From positions 1-61,324 of IMG/VR virus record IMGVR_UViG_3300046472_000303: 61,324 bases of DNA, one strand, 5' to 3'. Under the pieces are notes generated by a model, which searched no databases, was not told the origin of the DNA, and was given only the letters and a program-made list of their open reading frames with translations. Positions within the stretch are counted from its first letter, which is position 1. The number at the start of each line of letters is the position of its first letter. This DNA comes from a virus. Positions 1,140 through 53,180 of this stretch are shown here, one piece after another. Made by a program: the position numbers and the translations under genes.

Positions 1140-1543
1140 GTCCGCACCACCGCCGACAGGCAGCCCCTCTTGAGCAGCTGCGTCACCGCGCTGCTGAGCC
1201 CGTGGGTGTCCAGCAGGATCTCGATCTCGCGGGTGAGCACGCCGCGGTCGATCTCCTGCGCGGGCTTCAGGTGATCGCGGATGGTGGACCACACCTTGTA
1301 CAGATGCGTGCCGGGCGCGGCGGGCGTCCCGAAGAAGGTCCCGTTGACACGCACGATCGTGCCCTTGGGCCAGCGATGCTGGAAGGGCACGGGTCGCCGG
1401 CGGCGGATAGGCTGGTCCGGCAGCATCGAAGCGCGCGCGGCGGGCTCCGGCTGGTCGGTCAGCTCCGCGCGCACGGCGCCGCGGATCTCCTCTTGGATCG
1501 CCGCCTTGATTTCCTGGCGGATCAGGTCTCGCAGAATGCTCAT
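1136..1543 (-). CDS. Hypothetical protein, 135 residues
   Basis: The start at 1543 is chosen because an AGGAGG ribosome-binding site lies just upstream and the ATG follows the previous stop closely. The N-terminus (MSILRDLIRQEIKAAIQEE) is an amphipathic helix rich in glutamate and isoleucine. The centre is basic (IRRRRPVPF) and the C-terminus helical. It could bind nucleic acid through the arginine patch, but no family is recognised. Confidence 0.78.
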   Translation of the reverse strand: MSILRDLIRQEIKAAIQEEIRGAVRAELTDQPEPAARASMLPDQPIRRRRPVPFQHRWPKGTIVRVNGTFFGTPAAPGTHLYKVWSTIRDHLKPAQEIDRGVLTREIEILLDTHGLSSAVTQLLKRGCLSAVVRT

Positions 1544-1680
1544 GGTCGTGCCTCCTGGGGCTTGAACCCGAGGCGCTGTCGCAGCGCCCCGAGCAGTGTC
1601 GGTCGCGTCGGCTTGGGCTTGCCCAGCTTCGGCGACCATCCGTGGATGGTGCCGGGACCCTTGGGTAGTCGGTAGTTCAT
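1540..1680 (-). CDS. Small basic protein, 46 residues
   Basis: The ATG at 1680 is preceded by GAGGAGG and overlaps the previous gene's stop (ATGA); its own stop overlaps the next start in the same way. The product is basic and proline-rich (RLPKGPGTIHGW, GKPKPTRPT). The two couplings and the strong ribosome-binding site are the main evidence that it is real. Confidence 0.7.
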   Translation of the reverse strand: MNYRLPKGPGTIHGWSPKLGKPKPTRPTLLGALRQRLGFKPQEARP

Positions 1681-1991
1681 TTGCGTCCGTCCTCCTCGTT
1701 GCAGACCTCGATTGCGAACCGCATCGCCATGGCCGCCACCTGGATGGCTTCCTTCTGCATGGCGGCGAGGTCGCGCCGTTTCTGGTTCGTCCACACGTGC
1801 GCCTTCAGCTCGTCGACCTCCTCGAGCAGGACCGCGAAGCCTTCGTGCGCCGAGTTGAACGCGGGCCAGTTGCCCATGGCCGTGGCGAGCTCGTTGCACA
1901 CGGCGTCGAGCACCACCTGGTCCACGTCGCGCTCTGCGTCGCGGGCCCGGCGCTGCTGGCAAGCTGGGCATGTGCATGTATCTCCGGTCAT
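1677..1991 (-). CDS. MazG-like nucleotide pyrophosphohydrolase, zinc-knuckle N-terminus (putative)
   Basis: A 104-residue protein beginning with a short cysteine pair (CTCPACQQR). The later helices carry an LLEEVDELKAHVW segment and a KEAIQVAAMAMRF segment, the spacing of acidic residues seen in the four-helix MazG/all-alpha NTP pyrophosphatase fold. Known of the family: hydrolysis of (d)NTPs to monophosphates. Inferred role: adjusting nucleotide pools or alarmones during infection, with the HD and dATP/dGTP hydrolase-like genes at 57.8-58.9 kb. The start at 1991 overlaps the previous stop (ATGA). Assignment rests on motif appearance only. Confidence 0.72.
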   Translation of the reverse strand: MTGDTCTCPACQQRRARDAERDVDQVVLDAVCNELATAMGNWPAFNSAHEGFAVLLEEVDELKAHVWTNQKRRDLAAMQKEAIQVAAMAMRFAIEVCNEEDGRK

Positions 1992-2431
1992 TGGATCACC
2001 TGTCCGTTCTGCCGCTGCCACTGCCGCACGGCCGCGCGGGCGCGGGTCACGTTGTAAGCGTCGTCGAAGTACATGGCGCTGGAGATGTAGGTGCACCGCG
2101 CGGCGCAGTACATCTTGGCGTATTTTTCGTGCGATATGGGGTCGCGCTCCAGCCTGAGCTCCAGCGCAACGCGCTCACGTTTAAACTTGTAGTTGGCCTC
2201 GTCGGTGAGCTCGCAGCGGATCTTCTCGGCCCGGCGGTCGGCGGCGGAGTACGCCGCGAGGTACTTGCCCTTCAGCAAGTTGCTGATGAACGACACGGGC
2301 ATCGTCTTGGACAGCATCTCGGCCAGCTTCATGGTCGGGGCGACCCCGCGCGGGAACGCCGCCTCGAACTTCTCCAGGCCATGGGTACAGGCGCCGGCCC
2401 GGCGCAGCTGCGCTGCTGTGATCTTCTTCAC
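1988..2431 (-). CDS. Hypothetical protein, 147 residues
   Basis: The GTG start at 2431 overlaps the previous stop (GTGA). The protein is helical and charged, with a basic middle (KFKRERVALELRLERDPISH) and two cysteines (CAARC). The N-terminus resembles a small helix-turn-helix or lysis-protein-like repeat (KLAEMLSKTMPVSFISNLLKG), but no family is confidently recognised. Confidence 0.8.
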   Translation of the reverse strand: MKKITAAQLRRAGACTHGLEKFEAAFPRGVAPTMKLAEMLSKTMPVSFISNLLKGKYLAAYSAADRRAEKIRCELTDEANYKFKRERVALELRLERDPISHEKYAKMYCAARCTYISSAMYFDDAYNVTRARAAVRQWQRQNGQVIQ

Positions 2432-2598
2432 TTTGCCTTCTCCTTCAGATGGTTAACGATCTTCCTGACTGCTTCGGTCAGCATGCCCAGGCTCCAGTCG
2501 ATGCGGGCGCTGCGGGCTTCGTGCACCGCGGCCAGCTTCTCGAGCCGGGCAACCCGGCCCTCCAGGGACTCATTTGCAGTGGCCGTAGGTAGGGCCAT
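2428..2598 (-). CDS. Short coiled-coil protein overlapping the polymerase 3' end
   Basis: A 56-residue ORF whose ATG (2598-2596) lies inside the last codons of the polymerase gene in another frame, overlapping it by 29 nt. Its TGA overlaps the GTG of the next gene (GTGA). The product has a heptad pattern (EGRVARLEKLAAVHEARSA) and a basic C-terminus (KIVNHLKEKAK). It fills the only gap between two tightly coupled genes. Function unknown. Confidence 0.65.
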   Translation of the reverse strand: MALPTATANESLEGRVARLEKLAAVHEARSARIDWSLGMLTEAVRKIVNHLKEKAK

Positions 2599-4459
2599 CG
2601 TGTATCTCCACAGCTATGGGCAGCATGGGTAGGGGCACGAACTTCTCGCACATCGCGCGCTCGATCGCCGGCTTGACCTTCGCCACCCACTCCGTGGGCA
2701 CGACCCAGATCAGCTCGTCGTGCGCCTGGTGCGCGGCGGGCATCCCGGCGCGGGCGATCCGGATCTCGGCCTTCGTGGCCACGATCCTCGCCAGAGCCTG
2801 TGTGACGTTCTCAGTGACGACGCCGCCCCAGAGGCGGCCCTTGGTAGCCTTCTTCCCCTTGCGCTTGCTGTCGTAGATCATGCGGCCGTACATGCCATCG
2901 TCCGGGTCGATGTCGATCCTGATCCCCGGATAGATGATCGGCATGCCATTGGGGAGGATGATCCGCTCGTGCACGAACACGAACGGGCCCCAGCTCACCA
3001 TGGCCTTGGGGCTCATGCAGTTCTGCACCAGCTCCTCAAGCTGGTTCCACAGCGCCGGGATCGCCGGGTACGTGTCGCGGTAGAGGTCCACGATGCGGCG
3101 GGCCTCCTGCTCGGTCATCTTCACCCCGGCCAAGCTCATGACGTTCATGAACTTCTTCCAGCCCATGCCGTAGCCCAGGCCGAGAATGCACATCTTGCCG
3201 ACGAATCTCTCGGTGATGTCGGCCTTGGTGATTGTCCTGCCGTAGACCCTGCTAGCAAACTGGCAGTAGATGTCGACGCCATTCGCGAACGCCGCGACCA
3301 GGTCCCACTGCCCCGCGAGCGTTGCCACGATGCGGGCCTCGATGTTGCTGAAGTCCGCGGCCACGACGCTGTGCCCGGCGGGCGCCTTCATCGAGCGCCG
3401 CAGGGCGCCCTTGCGCGGGTCCTTCTTGTCGGGGCGCGGCAGGTTCTGGAGATTGATCAGCTCCATGCCGCCGAAGCGCCCCGGGTGCGCCGCGTAGTAG
3501 AGCAGCGGGATCGGGAGCAGATGCTCCCCGAACAGATCCAGGTCCCAGATCTTCGTAAACCTGTCCAGGCGCTTCGCCTCGAGCGTGCTGCTAAGGACCC
3601 CACGCGCTTCGACTAGCGCGCGCACCTCGGGGTCGTCGTGCAGCCGCAGGGCTATGAACTCCTCGTCGTCCTTGGCGAAGGCGTAGGTCTCTTTGCCCGT
3701 GGTCTTGCTGAGCTTCTTGGGGGCATCCACCCCCCGCGCTTTCAACAGCTTCACGAACGTCGGCCGGGAGCGCACGTCGTCCTCGCTCACGCCCAGCGCG
3801 CCGATGCCGGCCAGGATGCCGATGTGCTTCTGGTTGAGCGCTTCGCGGGCGACGGCGATCTCCTCCAGGTCGAGCTCGAACTTCGGCCGCAGGTACTTCT
3901 TCAGTGTCAGGTCGAGCAGATCTTGCTCGTCCACCGGCAGCCACTGGCACAGCACGCGCTTGACCCCGGCCGTCAGCTCGGAATCGTTGCAGCAGTAGTT
4001 GCCGTACGAGATAAGCTCCGCCACCGTGAAGTCCGCGCGGTGCTGGCCACGGTGGTTCTCTACCTCGTGGCCCTTCTCGCCCACGCCCAGGTACTTGGCC
4101 ACAGCTGCCAGCGACATGCTCCCCGTGTACGGCACGACGTATGGCCGCGAGGCCATCATCGTGCAGAAGATCTTCGCCGCGCTCGGGATGTTGAAGTGCC
4201 ATTCCAGGATCGCGGCGTCGAACATGGCGTTATGTGCAATGAGGCGCGCACGGCCCCAGTCGACTTCGAGCAGCCGGTGCCGCATCTCGTCGAAGGTGCC
4301 GCTGTACCACTCGGCCGGCGCGTCGCCGATCTTCAAGCTGAACCCGATCACCTCGAAGCGGGGGTCGAGCACGTACTCGATGTTGGTCAGCTTGGTCAGG
4401 GAATAGTCGGTGTCGTAGTAGGTCTCGAAGTCCAGCACGACGTCGGTTAGGTCTGTCAT
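2570..4459 (-). CDS. Family A DNA polymerase with 3'-5' exonuclease
   Basis: A 629-residue replicative polymerase. The start at 4459 overlaps the previous stop (ATGA). The N-terminal exonuclease has ExoI LDFET (D10, E12), ExoII AHNAMFD and an ExoIII-like YGNYCCND. The polymerase has motif A VVAADFSNIEAR (aspartate near 369), an O-helix RFVGKM...GLGYG and motif C HDE (about 580-582). Known: template-directed DNA synthesis with proofreading; no 5' nuclease domain is present, as is usual for phage enzymes. It sits in the left arm while the primase-helicase is at 50.8 kb, so replication genes are split between two leftward blocks. Confidence 0.97.
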   Translation of the reverse strand: MTDLTDVVLDFETYYDTDYSLTKLTNIEYVLDPRFEVIGFSLKIGDAPAEWYSGTFDEMRHRLLEVDWGRARLIAHNAMFDAAILEWHFNIPSAAKIFCTMMASRPYVVPYTGSMSLAAVAKYLGVGEKGHEVENHRGQHRADFTVAELISYGNYCCNDSELTAGVKRVLCQWLPVDEQDLLDLTLKKYLRPKFELDLEEIAVAREALNQKHIGILAGIGALGVSEDDVRSRPTFVKLLKARGVDAPKKLSKTTGKETYAFAKDDEEFIALRLHDDPEVRALVEARGVLSSTLEAKRLDRFTKIWDLDLFGEHLLPIPLLYYAAHPGRFGGMELINLQNLPRPDKKDPRKGALRRSMKAPAGHSVVAADFSNIEARIVATLAGQWDLVAAFANGVDIYCQFASRVYGRTITKADITERFVGKMCILGLGYGMGWKKFMNVMSLAGVKMTEQEARRIVDLYRDTYPAIPALWNQLEELVQNCMSPKAMVSWGPFVFVHERIILPNGMPIIYPGIRIDIDPDDGMYGRMIYDSKRKGKKATKGRLWGGVVTENVTQALARIVATKAEIRIARAGMPAAHQAHDELIWVVPTEWVAKVKPAIERAMCEKFVPLPMLPIAVEIHDGPTYGHCK

Positions 4460-5208
4460 CCCTTCACACTCGCCCACTCGTTGGGTTGGTGCTCGGTGAT
4501 CCGCTTCTGAGCATAGCGATCGTCGCCGCGCGGAATCATCCAGCACTTGGCCATCGTCTCTACCATGCGGTAGACCCTATTGCGCGGGAAGGCACTCCAG
4601 TCGTGCGGCACCGCGCTTGTTCGCGGCTGCATCTCGAGCGCCAACCGCTTCTCCTCTGGCAGATACTGTACCATTTCCGGGCACATCCTGCGCAACTGGC
4701 CGGCGGTGTTGATCATCGCGATCAGCTCCTTGCACGTCTTGATCGCCGACTCGCACTCCCCGACGAGCTGGGCGTAGTTGCGCGCCCAGGACAGCAGGGT
4801 CTTGGCGTGCTCGCCGAAGGCCGCCTCGAAGGCCGCCATCGTCACGAGCGGCCCCTCCGGTGCGGGGGGCAGGTGCATGAAGGCCCGGCCCAGTAGATCG
4901 TCGCGGACCGCCGGGTTGCCCACGTACTCCGAGTTGTCCCCGAGGTGTACGGTAAGATCCTGGGCGCCCACTCCGGCGCATGGCAGGACCATTGTGGCGC
5001 CGCCCGAGAACCACGACGCGCAGCTGTAGCCGCGGCGGGTCATCTCGACGACGACCCTCTGCACCCCCGGCTCGATCAGATTGTTGAACAGCCGGGGCAT
5101 CTCCGCCTGCGCGAGCGGGAACTTCACGACGTCGTAGCAGCGGCCGAACAGCCGCTTGAAATCAAGCTCCAGGTCTTCCTTCGCCCCCATCCCTATCCGA
5201 GTTGACAT
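4456..5208 (-). CDS. Hypothetical protein next to DNA polymerase, 250 residues
   Basis: Start at 5208 chosen for the GGAGGAG site upstream; it overlaps the neighbouring membrane-protein gene by 47 nt. The protein is soluble and mixed alpha/beta, with four cysteines spread over the length and a helical middle (residues about 120-190). Directly upstream of the polymerase and coupled to it by ATGA, so a replication accessory role is possible. No motif is recognised. Confidence 0.8.
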   Translation of the reverse strand: MSTRIGMGAKEDLELDFKRLFGRCYDVVKFPLAQAEMPRLFNNLIEPGVQRVVVEMTRRGYSCASWFSGGATMVLPCAGVGAQDLTVHLGDNSEYVGNPAVRDDLLGRAFMHLPPAPEGPLVTMAAFEAAFGEHAKTLLSWARNYAQLVGECESAIKTCKELIAMINTAGQLRRMCPEMVQYLPEEKRLALEMQPRTSAVPHDWSAFPRNRVYRMVETMAKCWMIPRGDDRYAQKRITEHQPNEWASVKG

Positions 5209-15611: not shown

Positions 15612-15660
15612 GGCAACACTCCTGGGGACAACATGCCAATGAGTCTATCATGGGCATAGT

Positions 15661-15669
15661 GTCTGTATG
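15661..15669 (-). promoter_or_regulatory. CATACAGAC element, leftward copy
   Basis: The exact nonamer CATACAGAC reads leftward here, about 50 nt before the first leftward gene. The same nonamer is at 17461-17469 and 21548-21556 on the plus strand, each time at the head of a transcription unit. Confidence 0.5.
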
Positions 15670-15917
15670 CGCGGAAGGGCCGAAATACGCTGTCCCTGCG
15701 TGTTTCAGCCCCTGAATACGCCAGGAAACACAGAAGGATCAACTACTTAGATGCGCTGTCCCGGGCGTTTATGCACCATGCGGGCCTCGGGACTATATAA
15801 TACACGGCGGATCATATGCTTAGACGCGCTGTCCCGCTGTCCCAGCGATTACGCCGGTCCGAGCCGGGGACGCGGGCGCCGCCCGCACCCCCCGCGTCCC
15901 ATCCCTAGCTATCCCTT

Positions 15918-15945
15918 ATTATATATCTTTGTTGTTGTTGTTGAA
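15918..15945 (-). promoter_or_regulatory. Leftward sigma70-type promoter candidate
   Basis: Reading leftward: TTCAAC (15945-15940), a 16-base spacer, then a perfect TATAAT (15923-15918). It points to the leftward early cluster that begins at 15611. A second TATAAT on the plus strand at 15796-15801 has no good -35. Confidence 0.5.
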
Positions 15946-16090
15946 AAAGACTGGGACAATAAGGACAAAGCTCCGCAGCCCGCGAAATCTCTCATCGAAA
16001 TTGTCCCGTGTAACTAGGTCAACAACGCGGACAACGTGGGCTAGAACTACGTCTGACTAGGAACCTGCGAACAAGTCCCTAGGCAGACGC

Positions 16091-16149
16091 GGCGGGCAAC
16101 GTGTCGTGGTCGGATGTGCACGACCTAATCGACCATTGCGTTGCCCGCC
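16091..16149. repeat. Nested inverted repeat, possible structured RNA or cruciform
   Basis: Perfect 11-base arms GGCGGGCAACG (16091-16101) and CGTTGCCCGCC (16139-16149) enclose a second hairpin GTCGTG/CACGAC (16103-16108 and 16119-16124). It lies just past the 3' end of the leftward 16165 gene. There is no U-run, so a simple terminator is unlikely. Confidence 0.6.
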
Positions 16150-16164
16150 ACGCCGCGCGGCCCG

Positions 16165-16677
16165 CTAGGCCGCCTTCTGCGCCCGGATGCCGGCGATCAT
16201 CGCCGCTGCGACCTCGGCGACCGCCTCGGGAACCTTGCGGGCTCCGTTCGGCAGCGTGCTCGTGTCGTTGGCGACGCGCTCGATGCTGGCCAGGAACTTG
16301 GCCATGGTGAGCGCCTTCGGCGCGACTTCCTTGGTGAAGTCCGCGTACGTCGTCAGCATCGACTCTGCGACGCGGAAGTCCGCTTCGCGGGTCGCGATCT
16401 CGCCCCGGAGCTGCGCGCCCCAGGCACCGTCCTTGAGCGTCAGCGCGAGCTTGCCCGAGCTGAACTCACGGAACCACGCCGCGACGGCCTGCACGCGCTG
16501 GCCCTTCGGCAAGGCGTTCAGCAAACCGACCGCGCCACGGTAGTCACCGTGCTCGCGGCAATGATCGAGCGTCGAGACCGCGTACTGATGGATGTTGGCT
16601 TCGAGCTCGACCGCGCTCGCGCGCAGAGTCGGAAGCCCGGCCACAACCTGAGCGGGAGTAAGGATTGCGATGGTCAT
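16165..16677 (-). CDS. Hypothetical phage protein, 170 residues
   Basis: Start at 16677 is chosen because AGGTTCTCC on the plus strand gives a GGAGAACC site leftward. The protein is helical; residues 35-75 carry a pattern remembered from several phage proteins of unknown function (HCREHGDYRGAVGLLNALP, then QRVQAVAAWF). Alone in the control region and preceded by a GAGTGTCCC inverted repeat, it may be separately regulated and strongly expressed early. Confidence 0.85.
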   Translation of the reverse strand: MTIAILTPAQVVAGLPTLRASAVELEANIHQYAVSTLDHCREHGDYRGAVGLLNALPKGQRVQAVAAWFREFSSGKLALTLKDGAWGAQLRGEIATREADFRVAESMLTTYADFTKEVAPKALTMAKFLASIERVANDTSTLPNGARKVPEAVAEVAAAMIAGIRAQKAA

Positions 16678-16720
16678 GGTAAGGTTCTCCGTACAGTGAG
16701 ACTGGCGCGGAATTGCGCCC

Positions 16721-16748
16721 GAGTGTCCCCAGTTGCCTAGGGACACTC
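16721..16748. repeat. Perfect inverted repeat GAGTGTCCC, operator candidate
   Basis: Arms GAGTGTCCC (16721-16729) and GGGACACTC (16740-16748) with a 10-base loop, about 45 nt upstream of the leftward 16165 gene. The arms contain two of the nine TGTCCC cores of the region, so the same factor may bind them. Confidence 0.6.
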
Positions 16749-16753
16749 AGTCG

Positions 16754-16951
16754 CTAGCGTGCGTTGTGGCAGACTCGCGCGCGGCCCGCGCAGCGGTCGG
16801 CGGCCGGCCAATTGCTCGCCATGCCGCGATGCGTCCAAGACGCGATGCGGTCGGCCAACCCTTGGGGACGCGGGATCGCTCGCAGAGTGTTGCCGCGACG
16901 ATAGACTTGACGGCCCGCCAGGAACGCGGCCGCCTCTTGCTCGAATGTCAT
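16754..16951 (-). CDS. Hypothetical protein, 65 residues
   Basis: GAGGT lies seven bases before the ATG at 16951. MTFEQEAAAFLAGRQVYRRG, then IPRPQGLADRIASWTHRGM, resembles short phage or helix-turn-helix-like proteins with a DNA-binding type second helix. The start overlaps the stop of the next gene (ATGA). Function unknown; a regulator is possible given the location. Confidence 0.65.
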   Translation of the reverse strand: MTFEQEAAAFLAGRQVYRRGNTLRAIPRPQGLADRIASWTHRGMASNWPAADRCAGRARVCHNAR

Positions 16952-17109
16952 TGTGATACCTCGCATGATGGACACTCAAACACCGCGCGCGGCGATGCTT
17001 GAGAGTCCACCATACGGAGCCCGTAGTTAAAGCCGTGACGTGCGCGGTAGTCCCGCGTCGCTTGCTTCGGTGTCGTGCGAGCGCGATCGGGCGCACGAGC
17101 CGTGGGCAT
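16948..17109 (-). CDS. Small basic protein with terminal CPSC, 53 residues
   Basis: The stop overlaps the next start (ATGA). Start unclear: ATG at 17109 has no strong ribosome-binding site and an in-frame GTG lies at 17136. The N-terminal half is strongly basic (RARTTPKQATRDYRARHG), and the C-terminus ends in FECPSCEVSQ, half of a zinc-knuckle pattern. Plausible but weaker than its neighbours. Confidence 0.45.
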   Translation of the reverse strand: MPTARAPDRARTTPKQATRDYRARHGFNYGLRMVDSQASPRAVFECPSCEVSQ

Positions 17110-17485
17110 GGCGTCTAGGAGGCAGGGCAGCGACACTTACCCGAGGTTCGGGCATGCGGGTTTCTCTCCCGCCACGCTGCGAGTGTTCCCCGTGACTCTG
17201 CTCGGGCCTTATCCGACCGAGACCGACGCGAGCCAAGGGGCGAGCGAGGGCCTAGGTTTCGGGGCGCGTGCCGTCAATGTCACGTCTCTGCACTAGGCTT
17301 CGGGGCCGGGAGCGCCGTTGCGCTGCATGCGGTTGCCGTCTGCAACCATAGGGAGACGGGCCGCATTATGACAAGTCGACCCTGCCTACCTGGACACGCC
17401 CCCCTCCCCCCGCCGGCGTGCTTTATCGCAGCCCGCCATATTTTCCAGTTGACTTTGATACATACAGACGTAATACTCAGCAGCC
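17110..17485. promoter_or_regulatory. Intergenic control region before the rightward unit
   Basis: No convincing gene was found in this 376-nt stretch. It contains a CTCGG/CCGAG hairpin around 17207-17222, a pyrimidine-rich run (about 17398-17412) and an AT-richer end leading into the promoter at 17449. It separates the last leftward gene from the first rightward gene. Confidence 0.6.
17449..17476 (+). promoter_or_regulatory. Rightward promoter candidate with CATACAGAC
   Basis: TTGACT at 17449-17454, then TAATAC at 17471-17476 with a 16-base spacer. An alternative extended -10 (TGATACATA) lies at 17456-17464. The CATACAGAC nonamer is at 17461-17469. The first rightward gene starts at 17486. 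Confidence 0.55.
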
Positions 17486-23023: not shown

Positions 23024-24433
23024 ATGGCTGACCTGATCTTCAAGCCGCCTGCGACGATCGAGAGCTTCATGTTCTCGGACAAGCGCTTTCGCGTCGTGCG
23101 CGGCCCGGTCGGCTCCGGCAAGTCGTCCGGCATGGTCATGGAGCTGCTCCGGCGCGCGAGCATGCAGGCCCCCGACCCGAACGACGGCATCCGCCGGTCC
23201 CGCGGCGTCATCGTCCGCAACACCCTGCCCCAGCTCAAGGCCACGTCGCTGAAGACGGTGCGCGAGCTGCTGGGCCCGATAATCGACTGGCGCCCTAGCG
23301 ACAACACGATCTGGATTCGCCAGGGCGACATCGAGGCCGAGTGGATCCTGATGCCCCTCGATACCCCGGACAACGTCCAGCGGCTTCTGTCGCTCGACCT
23401 GACCTACGCCTGGCTGTCGGAGCTGCGCGAGCTCCAGCCGCAGATCATGATGGATGTGTTCTCGCGGTGTGGCCGCTACCCCTCGATGATGCACGGCGGC
23501 CCGAGCTGGTACGGCGTGATCGGCGAGACCAACTCGTTCGATGAGGACTCCCCCTGGAACAAGATCCTCGAGGAGAAAGAGCTCGACGGGCGCGAGCTGC
23601 CCGAGGCGACGTGGGGCTACTGGGTGCAGCCCGGCGCGCGCGAGCCCGGCGCCGAGAACCGAGAGAACCTCGTACCCGGCTACTACGAAGACCTGATCGA
23701 GTCGAACAGCCCGGCCTGGGTCGAGCAGTACGTCGACAACATTATCGCCCCATCGCTGTCCGGCGAGGCGGTGTTCCGCTCCAGCTTCCGGCGCAAGTTT
23801 CACGTCGCGTCCCACGACCTGCTGCCGATTCCTAGCACGATGCTGGTGATAGGTATGGACTTCGGGCGCAACCCCGCGGCGGTCCTCACGCAGATGGACC
23901 CGCACGGCCGGCTGATAGTTCTGTACGAGGTGTACGCTGAGAACATGGGTGTTGAGCAGTTCTGCAACACGCTCCTGCGACCACTCCTGGCACAACCTCA
24001 CCTGCAGCGGTTGCCGGTTGGCGTCGTCGGCGACCCGAGCGGAATCGCGCGATCGCAGATCGGCGAGGAGTCCGTGTTCCAGGCCTTGAAGCGCCTGGGC
24101 TTCGCCGCGCAGCAGGCCCAGACCAACTCGATCGACCCGCGCTTGCGCGCCGTGGAGAAGTGGTTCCTGCAGCAGCGCGAGGGCGGCGCCGCGATCCTGA
24201 TCAGCCCAGCCTGCACGATGCTCGTGCGCGCGCTGCAGTCGAAGTATCGCTACGCCAAGAAGAAGGACGGCGAGCTTCAGCCGCAGCCCGAGAAGTCGCA
24301 TCCGTGGTCGGACCTCGCGGACGCGTTCCAATACGGTGTTCTTGGACATTCGGGCAACGTCCTTGCTAGACTCGTGCGCACAAGAGGCGCCGCTGTGAAG
24401 CGCCCACCCCCGTCAGCCGCAGGTTGGACCTGA
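23024..24433 (+). CDS. Terminase large subunit
   Basis: A 469-residue packaging motor. Walker A GPVGSGKS (27-34), a Walker B-like LTYAWLSE with E133, and nuclease aspartates D279 (GMDFGRNP), D337 (GDPSG) and D430/D433 (WSDLADAF). Known: ATP-driven DNA translocation and cleavage of concatemers. The stop overlaps the portal start (TGATG). Some members with this spacing use headful packaging, which cannot be decided here. Confidence 0.96.
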   Translation: MADLIFKPPATIESFMFSDKRFRVVRGPVGSGKSSGMVMELLRRASMQAPDPNDGIRRSRGVIVRNTLPQLKATSLKTVRELLGPIIDWRPSDNTIWIRQGDIEAEWILMPLDTPDNVQRLLSLDLTYAWLSELRELQPQIMMDVFSRCGRYPSMMHGGPSWYGVIGETNSFDEDSPWNKILEEKELDGRELPEATWGYWVQPGAREPGAENRENLVPGYYEDLIESNSPAWVEQYVDNIIAPSLSGEAVFRSSFRRKFHVASHDLLPIPSTMLVIGMDFGRNPAAVLTQMDPHGRLIVLYEVYAENMGVEQFCNTLLRPLLAQPHLQRLPVGVVGDPSGIARSQIGEESVFQALKRLGFAAQQAQTNSIDPRLRAVEKWFLQQREGGAAILISPACTMLVRALQSKYRYAKKKDGELQPQPEKSHPWSDLADAFQYGVLGHSGNVLARLVRTRGAAVKRPPPSAAGWT

Positions 24434-26805
24434 TGCCCGTCATTCCGAACAAGCCTAGCTCGACCTTAGACACCGGCACGGGGTCGCCCCGTACACCAGG
24501 CACGGCGCCCGGCGCAGGAGCCGGTGGCAGCGGCCTGTTGGGCAGCTCGGCGCGACAGGGCTCGGCCGTCCCCGGGACCGGGGGCGCGGTATCGAAGCCC
24601 GTCAAGAAGAAGGGCAGCAAGCTCGAGCTGCGCGCGCAGAGTCCGCATGGCCTGCTGCGCGTCGTGACGAACGACGAGCTCGTGGCCGCAGAGAAGGCCT
24701 CCCAGGATCTGTCCGCCGCGCCCGAGCGCGTGCTGTCGGACCTCGCGCGACACATCCGCGACCGCTTCGAGAAGGCCGTACGTCACCGGCGTACGATCGG
24801 CATCGACGACGAGCTGATCCGCGACATGCGCGCGTACAACGGCCAGTACGATCCGCAGAAGATGCAGGAGATCCAGAAGTTCGGCGGCAGCGGCGTCTAT
24901 TCCCGCATGATGGCGATGAAGTGCCGCGGCGCGACCGCGCTGCTGCGCGGCGTCTACATGAACAGCGACCGGCCGTGGATCCTCGAGCCCACGCCGGACC
25001 CCGTCATACCGCAGACCCTGAAGGACCACGCGCACACGCTGGTCAACGCAGAGGTCACCAAGGCCAACCAGGCCGGGCAGATAGTCGACCAGAACGCGAT
25101 CAAGGACCGCGTGGAAATGCTCTACTGGGCGATCAAGCTCGCCGAGCGCCGCAAGGCGGAGGTCGAGGCCAAGGAAGCCCAGCGCAAGATCGACGACATC
25201 CTCGAGGAGGGCATGTTCTATAAGGCCCTCAGCGACTTCCTGAACGACCTGCCGATCTACAAGTACGCCGTGATCAAGGGCCCCATCGTGCGCAACGACG
25301 CCACCCTGAAGTGGAGCCGCGGCGGCAAGATCGAGCGGCACCACGAGGCGAAGTTCTTCTGGAACCGCGTGTCCCCGTGGGACATATGGTTCAGCCCGGG
25401 CGCTACGGACATCACGAACACCGAGACGTTCGAGCGCCAGCGTCTGACGACGATGGACCTCTACAACCTGAAGGGTCTGCCCGGCTACCGCGACGAGGAG
25501 ATCGACGAGATCATCGCCGACTACGAGAACCGCGGGTACAAGGAGTGGATCCAGATCTTCGACACGGAGCGCGCCTACATGGAAGGCCGCAACAACGTGC
25601 TCGACGACACCTACATCAACGCCATCGAGTATCACGGCTACATCCTCGGGAAGTACCTCAAGGAATACGGCGTGAAGGGCGCGGACGAAGACACCAAGCC
25701 GTACTTCGTGACGGCGTGGATGGTCGACCGGCGAATCTTCAAGGTCATGCTGAACCCGAGCCCGCGCGTGCGTGTGCCCTACTACGTGACGAGCTTCGAC
25801 AAGCAGCCCGGCACGCTCTACGGCAACGGCATTCCGTCGCTGGCGAACGACCTCACCGACGTGATCAACGCGGTGCTGCGCGCCCTCGTGAACAACATGA
25901 GCATCGCGTCCGGCCCGCAGGTGGTCTACGACGAGGAGATGCTGTCCCCGAACCAGGACGACGGACTCTACCCCTGGAAGAAGTGGAAATTCGTCGGCGA
26001 CCCGGCCAATCCGAATCGCAAGGCGGTCGAGTTCTTCTCGCCGCAGGACAACTCGCAGTCGTTGATCCAGGTGCTCGACAAGTTCAGCACCATGCTCGAC
26101 GACGTCAGCACGATCCCGCGCTACCTGACCGGCAGCGGCGGCGCCGCCGGCGCCGGCCGCACGGCTTCGGGCCTCTCGATGCTGATCAACAACGCGAACA
26201 AGACGCTGCAGAACGTGGCGGACAACATCGACACCGACATCTTCGGGCCGCTGCTGCACGAGCTCTACGACTACATCATGCTCACGGACCCGACGGAAAT
26301 GCTCCGCGGCGACGAGAACATCATGGTCGATGGCGTGCGCCAGGCCGCCAAGCAAGAGCAGGACCTGAGCCGCCAGCTCGAGTTCCTGAACCTGATCAAC
26401 AACCCGAACTATCAGACAATGCTCGGCCCAGGCGAGGTCGGACGGATCTTGCAGAAGATCGCGGACAACATCGGCATGGAGATCAAGGTCAAGAATCCGG
26501 ACGACGTGCCCGGCGCGAAGCCGCCCGGCATGCCGGATCCTCCGCCGCAGCCGCCGCCCCCGCCGCCCCCGAAGGTCACGATCGCGCTCAAGGGCGATCT
26601 ACCCTCGCAGGATGCGGAGAAGCTGGCCGGGCTGCCGCCGAGCATGCCCGCGCCGCCCGCCGGTGGCGGTGGTGGTTTCAACCCCTCGGGCGGTACGGCG
26701 TCGGTGAATCCAGCGTCCGCGCAGCCTGGCGCCGGCGGCGTACCGGGCCTGAAGCCCGCGCCGCAGGTGGCCGCGGCGACCGGACCGAACAATCAGCAGG
26801 CGTGA
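24433..26805 (+). CDS. Portal protein
   Basis: A 790-residue podovirus-type portal. The first 90 residues are glycine/serine-rich. The core contains long helices, a stem-like region, PWDIWFSPGATDI and NGIPSLANDLTDVINAVLRA typical of these portals, and a putative tunnel-loop region ending near TIPRYLTGSGGAAGAGRTAS. The C-terminal 130 residues are proline- and glycine-rich. Known: dodecamer at the capsid vertex for DNA entry and exit. Start TGATG-coupled to the terminase. Confidence 0.93.
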   Translation: MPVIPNKPSSTLDTGTGSPRTPGTAPGAGAGGSGLLGSSARQGSAVPGTGGAVSKPVKKKGSKLELRAQSPHGLLRVVTNDELVAAEKASQDLSAAPERVLSDLARHIRDRFEKAVRHRRTIGIDDELIRDMRAYNGQYDPQKMQEIQKFGGSGVYSRMMAMKCRGATALLRGVYMNSDRPWILEPTPDPVIPQTLKDHAHTLVNAEVTKANQAGQIVDQNAIKDRVEMLYWAIKLAERRKAEVEAKEAQRKIDDILEEGMFYKALSDFLNDLPIYKYAVIKGPIVRNDATLKWSRGGKIERHHEAKFFWNRVSPWDIWFSPGATDITNTETFERQRLTTMDLYNLKGLPGYRDEEIDEIIADYENRGYKEWIQIFDTERAYMEGRNNVLDDTYINAIEYHGYILGKYLKEYGVKGADEDTKPYFVTAWMVDRRIFKVMLNPSPRVRVPYYVTSFDKQPGTLYGNGIPSLANDLTDVINAVLRALVNNMSIASGPQVVYDEEMLSPNQDDGLYPWKKWKFVGDPANPNRKAVEFFSPQDNSQSLIQVLDKFSTMLDDVSTIPRYLTGSGGAAGAGRTASGLSMLINNANKTLQNVADNIDTDIFGPLLHELYDYIMLTDPTEMLRGDENIMVDGVRQAAKQEQDLSRQLEFLNLINNPNYQTMLGPGEVGRILQKIADNIGMEIKVKNPDDVPGAKPPGMPDPPPQPPPPPPPKVTIALKGDLPSQDAEKLAGLPPSMPAPPAGGGGGFNPSGGTASVNPASAQPGAGGVPGLKPAPQVAAATGPNNQQA

Positions 26806-50448: not shown

Positions 50449-50856
50449 ATGAGACTGCTGGCAGGAATATTGCTGGGAATTGTCGGCGCGGTGGTGATGT
50501 CCGCCAGCGCCGCTGTCTACTACGGCTACAACCCGTCGACCGGCCTCGAGACCATACACGGCCAGCTCGTCGACGGTAGCCCGGTGCAGTCGATCACCAG
50601 CGGCAACTGCACGATCGCGAACATCAAGGGTGGTAGCACGGCGGGGCAGTTCACGGTCAACACCACGGCCACGTGCAACATCACGCTTACCGAGGGATCC
50701 CCGGCGCCGAACGGCTACACCTGCCTTGTCATGGACGCGACGGCCGCGAGCTTCGCCCAGGTGCTGAGGCAGACGTCTCAGACCACCACGAGCTGCACGC
50801 TCTCCGGCGCGATTAACTCCGGTGACATCGTCATCTTCATAATGATCGGCTACTAG
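50449..50856 (+). CDS. Secreted fibre-tip-like protein, paralogue family D (copy 2)
   Basis: A 135-residue protein right after the giant gene. The signal peptide (AGILLGIVGAVVMSASA) precedes YYGYNPSTGLETIHGQLVD. Blocks such as APNGYTCLVMD, TTTSCTLSGAI and SGDIVIF then match the 21003 gene in order. Its stop overlaps the stop of the convergent primase-helicase gene. Inferred: envelope-located; function unknown. Confidence 0.84.
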   Translation: MRLLAGILLGIVGAVVMSASAAVYYGYNPSTGLETIHGQLVDGSPVQSITSGNCTIANIKGGSTAGQFTVNTTATCNITLTEGSPAPNGYTCLVMDATAASFAQVLRQTSQTTTSCTLSGAINSGDIVIFIMIGY

Positions 50857-53180
50857 ACCTTGCGCCCGCCGGCCGCGGCGGTCGCGAACACCGCCGCCAC
50901 CTGCGTCGCGTACTCGGCCCGGATCTCGGGCAGCGACGGGTTCCAGTGCGGCGACAGCGTGTAGGTTCTCGTGCGCAGCCCGCCGGACACCAGCCGCGGG
51001 CGCCCGCCGATCTCCCTGATCTGCAGCCCGTCGTGCCGCAGCCACTGCCCGACCAGGGCTGTGGAGCAATCCTTGATCCCGCTGGCCGAGAGCACCGTGC
51101 GCGCCTGCTCGAGCGTGAACAGCTTGGGCGATAGCTCGCCGTTGCTGAAGGCGTCGAGCAGCGTCTGTATCGGCGTCGGGAAGGACGCGTTGATCAGCCG
51201 CTTGTGGGCCGTCGTGCGGACCGGCTCCACGGGATCGAACTTGCTGACGTTGAGCGACAGGAAGTACCCGAGCAGGATGCCGGGGGCGCTCTTGTGATTG
51301 AGGAAGCTGCCGTAATACCTGCTCCGTTCGGCGTCGGTGAACTTCGGCACGTCGCAGTGGTGGACGAACCAGCGGCGGTCGCCGATCTGCAGGCTCACCG
51401 CCGCACGGTAGTTGCTGGTCGCGAACAGCGTCATCCGGTTCGGCTGCGAGAAGCCCGGCAGCCCCTTGGGGATGATCCGCAGCCGAGGTGAGGTGATGTG
51501 CGACTTCATCCGGTTGGACTGACCCTCGGCGTCGCGGCGGTTGGCGAGGTGGAGCTCCGCCAGGCTGACGATGCGGGCGCGCTGCAGCCAGTCCGTGAAC
51601 GTGCTCTCGACCTCCTGTGGCGTGGGCGTCGAGACATTGCTCGTGCCGAACACCAGTTGGGGGATGATCTCGAACAGCGTCGACTTGCCGCAGCCCGGCG
51701 TGCCCGTGAGCAGCGAGGCGAACGGCAGCCGCCCCGTCGGGTTGTGACACAGCCAGGCCATGCACATCCGGAGGTACTCGGCCACCGCCGGGTCATCGAC
51801 GACGCGGAGATAGAGCGCTTCGATCAGGGCCGTCTGGTCCGCGTCGGGAGTGACCGGCGCGATATGCGGGTCCCGCCACGTATTCAGGCACAGCTCTCCG
51901 TCTTCGACCACGGTCTCGTTCGAGCCGGGCGCGTAGGTCAGGCTGCCGCAGCGGATAGCCTTCTTGGATTCCCGCAGCACTTTCACGGGGTCCAGCGGGT
52001 TCTTCTTCACCTGGGGCATATTGCTTGTCTCCAGGTCTCGCAGTGCTTCCCGCGAGACGGGCTTGAGCTCGCCGCGGACGAAGTAGCGGTCTAGCTCGCG
52101 GACGAACACGTACTTAGCGACCAGGGCGTTCTCAGCGGCGACGTCCTCAGAGACCGTGCCGTTGCCGCCCAGGGCGTTCTTGGCCACCTGCTGCATCTGC
52201 TGCTTCAGCGGTGCGTTCGCCGATGGCTTCGGGGGCGCGGCGGGCTTCGCGGCCTTCGCGGCCGGCGGAGCTGCAGCTGGCTGCGCTGGTGCCACGTTCA
52301 TGGATGCCATGGCGATGATAGTTGCGAGCCCGACCGACATGGCCTTGCCCGTCTTGAACGACGCCCACTGCTGGTTGTGCACCCCCTCGTGATACTTGGC
52401 GCTCTGCTTCCCGAAGTCTTTCCAGAGGTCCAGCCCCTGCGCGCTGCCGTTGGTCACCTTGTGCAGCGCCATGCCGAGTTTGACCCAGCTCTCGCGCGGG
52501 TCGGCATCGGCCGCCGGAATCGACATGACCAGCGAACGCAGCTCGCCGATCGTCGGCGGCGGTATCTCCAACCCGCCGATGGACATCTGCGCGAGCACCG
52601 CCGGGTCGACAGCACCCTGCGGTGTGGGGTCCAGGAAACTAGCCCCGCCCGGGTATACCAGGGTAGCGGGTGGGGGTGCGATCGTAGGTCTTGTGGCAAC
52701 CTGCGCGGCCGCCGGCATTGGATTCATGTCCAAAAGCGGCACGGTGTCGCCCGTACCGCCGAACCACCAGATCCCCTCGCGGGCGTTGGTGTCAGCGCCG
52801 AACTCTGCGATCAGCGCTCTGCTGTCCTGTTTGCTGCGACGCTCCTCGTCGCAGATAACCCTCAGCCCGCCGGAGCGGGAGTAAGACGCCCAAGCGTTTG
52901 GCCATCGCTCGAGCAGTCGCGCCTTGATCTCGGCTGTCATCGGGCAATCCCGATCGTAGTCGAGAACCAGCGCGGTCCGGTCTACGTTGCTCTGCCCCGC
53001 AAGCGGCTTGGAGATGTCGTAGTCGAGAGCGGACCAGCCGCCGCCGACTTGGGGTGTGGCACCCTTCGCCGGCGGCGGACTGTACTGCTCTGCAAACCAC
53101 TGAGGAACATCGTCCCAGGCGACGTCGTGCTGGGCTTTGGCCTTCCAGCCCGGCGTCGCGGCGATTTTTGTTAGTCGCAC
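50853..53180 (-). CDS. SF3 primase-helicase, D5-like
   Basis: A 775-residue replication protein. The N-terminal part resembles an archaeo-eukaryotic primase: LVLDYDRD gives the acidic motif, and SYSRSGGLRVI stands where SxH is usual, so the catalytic site may be altered. A PriCT-like helical linker (RESWVKLGMALHKV, SAKYHEGVHNQQWASF) follows, then the SF3 ATPase with LLTGTPGCGKST, a Walker B-like ARIVSLAEL and an arginine region (SNYRAAV ... DRRW). Known role: primer synthesis and fork opening. It ends convergently with the 50449 gene. Confidence 0.9.
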   Translation of the reverse strand: MRLTKIAATPGWKAKAQHDVAWDDVPQWFAEQYSPPPAKGATPQVGGGWSALDYDISKPLAGQSNVDRTALVLDYDRDCPMTAEIKARLLERWPNAWASYSRSGGLRVICDEERRSKQDSRALIAEFGADTNAREGIWWFGGTGDTVPLLDMNPMPAAAQVATRPTIAPPPATLVYPGGASFLDPTPQGAVDPAVLAQMSIGGLEIPPPTIGELRSLVMSIPAADADPRESWVKLGMALHKVTNGSAQGLDLWKDFGKQSAKYHEGVHNQQWASFKTGKAMSVGLATIIAMASMNVAPAQPAAAPPAAKAAKPAAPPKPSANAPLKQQMQQVAKNALGGNGTVSEDVAAENALVAKYVFVRELDRYFVRGELKPVSREALRDLETSNMPQVKKNPLDPVKVLRESKKAIRCGSLTYAPGSNETVVEDGELCLNTWRDPHIAPVTPDADQTALIEALYLRVVDDPAVAEYLRMCMAWLCHNPTGRLPFASLLTGTPGCGKSTLFEIIPQLVFGTSNVSTPTPQEVESTFTDWLQRARIVSLAELHLANRRDAEGQSNRMKSHITSPRLRIIPKGLPGFSQPNRMTLFATSNYRAAVSLQIGDRRWFVHHCDVPKFTDAERSRYYGSFLNHKSAPGILLGYFLSLNVSKFDPVEPVRTTAHKRLINASFPTPIQTLLDAFSNGELSPKLFTLEQARTVLSASGIKDCSTALVGQWLRHDGLQIREIGGRPRLVSGGLRTRTYTLSPHWNPSLPEIRAEYATQVAAVFATAAAGGRKV

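Follow-up and report, generated by a model that had tools for sequence, protein, structure and literature searches.

The repeat array and its surroundings

The locus that we study lies in the left part of a viral genome, where a cluster of short repeats surrounds an AT-rich core, between the gene of protein family phrog_1448 and the next leftward gene. The window, that is, the whole stretch of DNA analysed here, is an entire IMG/VR virus record of 61,324 bases with podophage-like gene content. It encodes a major head protein, an internal virion protein and a SNF2-type helicase in addition to the products listed below. Among the window proteins scanned, no phage RNA polymerase, repressor, integrase, DNA-binding regulator or partition protein was recognised. 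Comparison of the window DNA with named phages gave no match, and our scans found no close relatives of single left-arm proteins. The main features are as follows.

2570-4546: DNA polymerase; the copy in a distant relative is annotated DNA polymerase I
15625..16007, both strands: iteron array, seven GGGACA/TGTCCC
15625-, 15691+, 15757+, 15830+, 15838+, 15953-, 16002+, 16724+, 16740-: individual TGTCCC/GGGACA copies, with strand
15736..15763, + strand: box-iteron module 1, GGATCAACTACTTAGATGCGCTGTCCCG, consisting of the box ATCAACTACTTAG and then an iteron
15809..15836, + strand: box-iteron module 2, GGATCATATGCTTAGACGCGCTGTCCCG, adjoining a small TATATAATA stretch at 15793-15804
15828..15843, + strand: tandem iteron GCTGTCCCGCTGTCCC, an exact 8-bp repeat
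15905..15965: AT-rich core containing GTTGTTGTTGTT, a candidate unwinding element
15918..15947, - strand: promoter-like TTTTCA-18-TATAAT, sigma-70-like, inside the core and reading leftward
16165..16677, - strand: phrog_1448 gene, 170 aa, the locus marker in all ten phages discussed here
16721..16748, - strand: GAGTGTCCC palindrome, first of two hairpins in the phrog_1448 5' leader
23024-24433: large terminase
24424-26805: head-tail adaptor/portal
50853..53180, - strand: primase-helicase, PriCT_2 plus DUF5906/VapE-like, SF3-type, candidate initiator

A sequence-only reading of this DNA had placed the array between the two main divergent transcription units. The boundary between those units is in fact near 17.0-17.5 kb, and the array sits about 1 kb inside the leftward unit, with two leftward genes (16753-16952 and 16165-16677) to its right. 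The same reading had counted nine TGTCCC/GGGACA hexamers in about 1.1 kb, and we find all nine, within 15625-16745, although two of them (16724+ and 16740-) are the arms of the palindrome at 16721-16748. Over the whole window TGTCCC occurs 33 times against 32.0 expected, so that the hexamer is not enriched overall and only its clustering is unusual. That clustering is the strongest shown by any hexamer of the window when 1139-bp windows are scanned (p 1.9e-8); across 60 Markov-shuffled control windows, the most extreme cluster had p 8.1e-8.

Three of the copies do share a longer context, with start-to-start spacings of 66 and 73, and two of these three belong to a 28-bp repeat of 86% identity (15736-15763 and 15809-15836). 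The exact 8-bp tandem at 15828-15843 had escaped the sequence-only reading.

Each 28-bp module has two halves: the left half resembles ATCAA-N4-TTAG, exactly so in module 1, and the right half is the iteron. The string ATCAANNNNTTAG occurs once in the window and in 0 of 100 shuffles. As a sequence match only, ATCAACTACTTAG fits the IHF consensus WATCAANNNNTTR with one mismatch, and by this analogy we infer that the ATCAA-N4-TTAG box is a putative site of IHF or a similar bending protein. The TGAC between the box halves is conserved beyond what IHF alone would need, and another binder of the box is therefore possible. A literature search for the box sequence returned nothing relevant.

The AT-rich stretch was correctly described as flanked by repeats: the seven hexamers at 15625-16007 surround the least stable DNA of the record. 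Nearest-neighbour stability over the 61-kb record reaches its minimum in the core, at 15915, whether computed over 30, 50, 80 or 150 bp. GC skew shows no switch at the array, and Rfam yielded nothing.

The GAGTGTCCC palindrome reported near the 16165 gene exists, but we reject it as a member of the array, since it lies in the 5' leader of phrog_1448 and the hairpins found there in relatives have unrelated sequence. The 75 bases before the phrog_1448 start (16678-16752, - strand) fold into two consecutive hairpins with z -4.9. Leader folding is seen in nine of the ten phages, with z from -1.9 to -4.9, and their stems are unrelated in sequence; the loop of the second hairpin often resembles AAGUUC. 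These hairpins are a separate, RNA-level feature; judged by predicted folding, they look like a conserved RNA element for processing, stability or translation control.

One layout, different words

Using phrog_1448 as a marker, we found nine relatives (L019, L020, L021, L022, L023, L027, L028, L032 and L033). A three-sequence alignment of phrog_1448 led to G001, G005, L019, L020 and L022, and a six-sequence alignment to L027, L028, L032 and L033; G001 (L002/L021) and G005 (L009/L023) had first been reached through the portal protein. Near phrog_1448, each of the nine carries a cluster of its own short word, on both strands:

L019: GTAACAG
L020: TGGCCA
L021: GTAACT
L022: CTTACAG
L023: ATAACAG
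L027: GTCTCA
L028: TTTGTCC
L032: ACTTGTC
L033: GCCTTA

The words thus differ across the phages (GCTGTCCC, TTTGTCCC, CTGTTACA, CTGTTATC, CTGTAAGA, CTGTCTCA and others; a further example from the relatives is CTGTTACACTGTTACA). In one register many of them read CTGTNNNN, namely CTGTCCCG, CTGTTACA, CTGTTATC, CTGTAAGA and CTGTCTCA. The word of L028 shares GGGACA with the window, and that locus is nearly superimposable on module 2.

Relative to the remainder of each locus, the iteron word is enriched 5- to 549-fold in the array; these words were picked after inspection, and of the tests made, the period and melting tests alone do not depend on that choice. The period test, which requires no motif, asks for 6-mers repeated 8 bp apart. 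Both the window and eight relatives out of nine score positive (p 0.003-0.033), and the combined Fisher value is 9e-13; the remaining phage, L032, has p 0.086 at 8 bp and instead shows repeats spaced 9 and 18 bp. We first saw the 8-bp period in L019-L023, and L027, L028 and L033, which were fetched afterwards, confirm it. In the melting test, no other 50 bp of the locus are less stable than the core in eight relatives; in the remaining one the core comes second.

Other elements of the layout recur as well. Most relatives have one box ATCAATGACTTAGC that matches the IHF consensus; it is absent or degenerate in L020 and L022. The string TCAATNNCTTA occurs exactly once, within the array, in seven of the nine relative loci. 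On alignment, the order iteron, box, TATATA is common to the window and most relatives, and it is module 2 of the window that aligns with this order. The main core lies some 90-170 bp from the boxes in the window, compared with 15-30 bp in the relatives. The array is found on one side of the phrog_1448 gene in some relatives and on the other side in others, and its position within the records varies (15.6 of 61.3 kb, about 45 of 60.8, 62 of 64.7 and 32 of 62.7).

Conservation in relatives therefore has a double outcome: the hexamer itself is not kept, and the architecture is kept with a lineage-specific word. A layout that persists while its word changes is the pattern expected of iteron/initiator pairs. 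We read the words as initiator sites because an initiator and its site drift together while the remaining machinery stays as it is.

In one relative (L020:4640-5560), words of the GTGGCCAAGTGG type also build intergenic hairpins, so that iteron and hairpin sequences overlap.

A candidate replication origin

The sequence-only reading had proposed a replication origin or a master control region. The comparison lends good support to the first of these, given that iterons and a melting-prone core occur at the same locus in ten phages, most of which also have an IHF-type box there. We conclude that 15.62-16.01 kb is probably the replication origin of this podophage, of the iteron type, and we assign this reading, which is drawn from sequence comparison, a probability of roughly 0.78. 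By analogy with characterised systems, the best reading would liken it to P4 ori or to R6K gamma ori, its iterons being particular to the lineage.

The most likely initiator, and thus the candidate iteron binder, would be the primase-helicase, as suggested by analogy with P4 alpha and the NrS-1 polymerase. Its gene is far from the array. The helicase part of the enzyme has a match (6k9c, E 5e-10) to the SF3-type ring of NrS-1 polymerase. A PriCT_2/DUF5906 primase-helicase is encoded by the window and by each of the three full-size relatives, whose enzymes are 23-27% identical to that of the window. For TIGR01613, the C-terminal model of P4-family primases, there is no window match, and L025 scores 19.4 bits against a cut-off of 108.7. 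Elements predicted at the C-terminus in a poor model of mean pLDDT 36 (helix 690-699, helix 705-717, strand 719-724, strand 727-732) hint at a possible winged helix there. In the G001 phage (L024, G001:C1:18441-20177), two TAG codons were counted in the primase match, yet the frame is open and encodes 810 aa (locus 1519-3951).

The proposed mechanism has four steps. An initiator, most likely the primase-helicase acting through a putative C-terminal DNA-binding domain, would bind the iterons. IHF or a similar bending protein would bind the ATCAA-N4-TTAG box and wrap the array. The AT core would then melt, and the helicase ring would assemble on the open strands. Finally, the primase half, with NrS-1-like sequence recognition, would lay the first primers for the phage DNA polymerase.

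Several known systems resemble parts of this scheme. The origins of SV40, opened by T-antigen, and of papillomaviruses, opened by E1, place short words in both orientations beside AT-rich DNA and are opened by SF3 helicases; the likeness to our array, whose words also run in both orientations next to AT-rich DNA, is one of layout, and these are viruses of eukaryotes. The lambda origin likewise has phage iterons adjoining an AT-rich stretch, but its iterons are 19-bp inverted repeats within the O gene, served by the O and P proteins, whereas the window has 8-bp words in non-coding DNA. R6K gamma ori and pSC101 share iterons, an AT-rich core and an adjacent box of the IHF type (a putative one in the window) with the window, although the iterons of the plasmids are longer and in phase with the helix. 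Origins of iteron plasmids make use of IHF or HU (PMC5043065). Neither a Rep-type initiator nor a DnaA site was identified in the window. In P4, as we propose here, short origin repeats are bound by a primase-helicase of the SF3/D5 kind, an enzyme that the window also encodes, and P4 alpha binds its repeats via a winged helix (PMC4234260). The P4 origin differs in repeat sequence and layout, with an IHF-like box present in the window; alpha has a Toprim-type primase (PMC4234260), compared with the PriCT_2-linked one of the window; and, unlike P4, the window phage has its own DNA polymerase. The NrS-1 primase-polymerase, with its SF3-like ring, matches the window enzyme in its helicase part and must recognise an 8-nt sequence in order to prime (PMC7102993), but only two copies of that site exist in its genome and no array is reported.

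It is important to weigh this origin reading against other explanations of the same features. The main rival is that the array is a set of operators with an early promoter region, at which a phage regulator bound to the repeated sites controls leftward early transcription. The sigma-70-like TTTTCA-18-TATAAT in the core fits this account, as does the location of the sites upstream of leftward genes. In the relatives, however, the promoter-like sites are weak and have no constant direction, while the iterons, the core and the box persist; no conserved promoter of fixed orientation emerges. The array, moreover, lies on either side of phrog_1448 among them, and the proteins scanned included no recognisable repressor or DNA-binding regulator. 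A promoter-like site is present in the core of the window, but its strength and direction are not conserved, and as the main reading a "master control region" lacks support. We regard an operator array as unlikely; an initiator that also regulates its own locus would unite it with the origin reading.

The remaining alternatives seem to us far less probable. The cosB site of lambda combines repeated protein sites with an IHF site, and P1 parS has boxes on both sides of an IHF site, so the IHF-like box and the repeats that flank it on both sides could recall either. A packaging site (cos or pac), at which terminase sites would flank the IHF site, is very improbable, given that the large terminase gene is 7 kb away, that the arrays occupy differing internal positions and not the ends of records, and that packaging has no need of a melting core. 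A partition centromere with ParB boxes is the least probable of all, since none of the proteins scanned was recognised as a partition protein and the conserved TATATA core is no feature of parS. A chance cluster of hexamers in one intergenic region, an account consistent with the lack of hexamer enrichment in the window overall, deserves hardly more credence, as it conflicts with the all-hexamer scan, the melting minimum and the independent recurrence of the layout in nine relatives.

What is new here is one layout with private iteron words. A bolder proposal, which we offer tentatively and consider rather less than even odds, is that primase-SF3 phages may possess a distinct class of origin. 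Its layout would be fixed (bending box, 8-bp tandem iterons, TATATA core) with the word swapped in each lineage, and each initiator, paired with its word, might act as a private recognition code by which co-infecting phages are kept apart. Of the lytic phages known only from metagenomes, most have unmapped origins; a layout recognisable without sequence conservation would permit origin prediction across the whole phage group. Such a layout would also supply pairs of initiator and site ready for binding tests, and a set of natural variants in which to trace how an initiator shifts from one recognition word to another in origins that remain functional.

Wider occurrences and control phages

We also searched for the elements of the layout outside the nine relatives. 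An IMG/VR scan for ATCAATGACTTAGCCCGC returned eight loci, including the contigs of L019 and L027 and those of an otherwise different phage (L036, L039, L042). The latter carries the box, GGTGAG iterons and a TATATATTATATA core with TATATA; no relative of phrog_1448 was found in the contig DNA examined for these three, and a weak match to DUF5906 is present in the L036 record. The distant Rhizobium phage RHph_TM3_14A carries ATCAATGGCTTAG at a similar point of its gene order, within an extended AT-rich non-coding region. In Rhodobacter phage RcDurkin the box adjoins TTGCAATC repeats, with weak statistics.

In bacterial genomes the 18-mer of the box has 15 matches against about 7 expected by chance, a figure estimated from the size of the collection. 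These matches lack clear iterons, and some adjoin apparent tRNA 3' ends. The box alone is therefore rejected as a marker of origins; only the combination of features is informative. In the Acidovorax plasmid pACP3.1 (L045:2440-2660), four 63-bp tandem units hold CGCTAAGTCATTGATTTCATTGGG (or a GTTG variant), between a recombinase gene and a ParB-like gene, and the box itself is thereby present in tandem copies.

As controls we took five phages of other groups that possess phrog_1448: Vibrio VPp1, Burkholderia JG068, Pseudomonas KBC54, Acinetobacter APK127v and Brevundimonas BC. Neither 8-bp arrays nor the exact box was found in them. The presence of the gene without arrays in these five disfavours its product as the iteron binder. 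Most of the controls have a small gene ahead of phrog_1448, close to where the early region begins, which suggests that phrog_1448 is a marker of an early locus and, taken alone, does not account for the arrays.

The window gene adjoining phrog_1448 (16753-16952, - strand) encodes a small, mostly basic protein of 66 aa. A comparable small gene stands beside phrog_1448 in the relatives, and several autographiviruses have a small gene ahead of it; the two may therefore be early genes common to several phage groups. Finally, the sequence CAGCCCGCCATA(T/C)TTTC is common to window 17427-17441 and L002:3150-3165, in both cases just upstream of the rightward unit, and in the window it adjoins a promoter-like TTGACT-17-AATACT.
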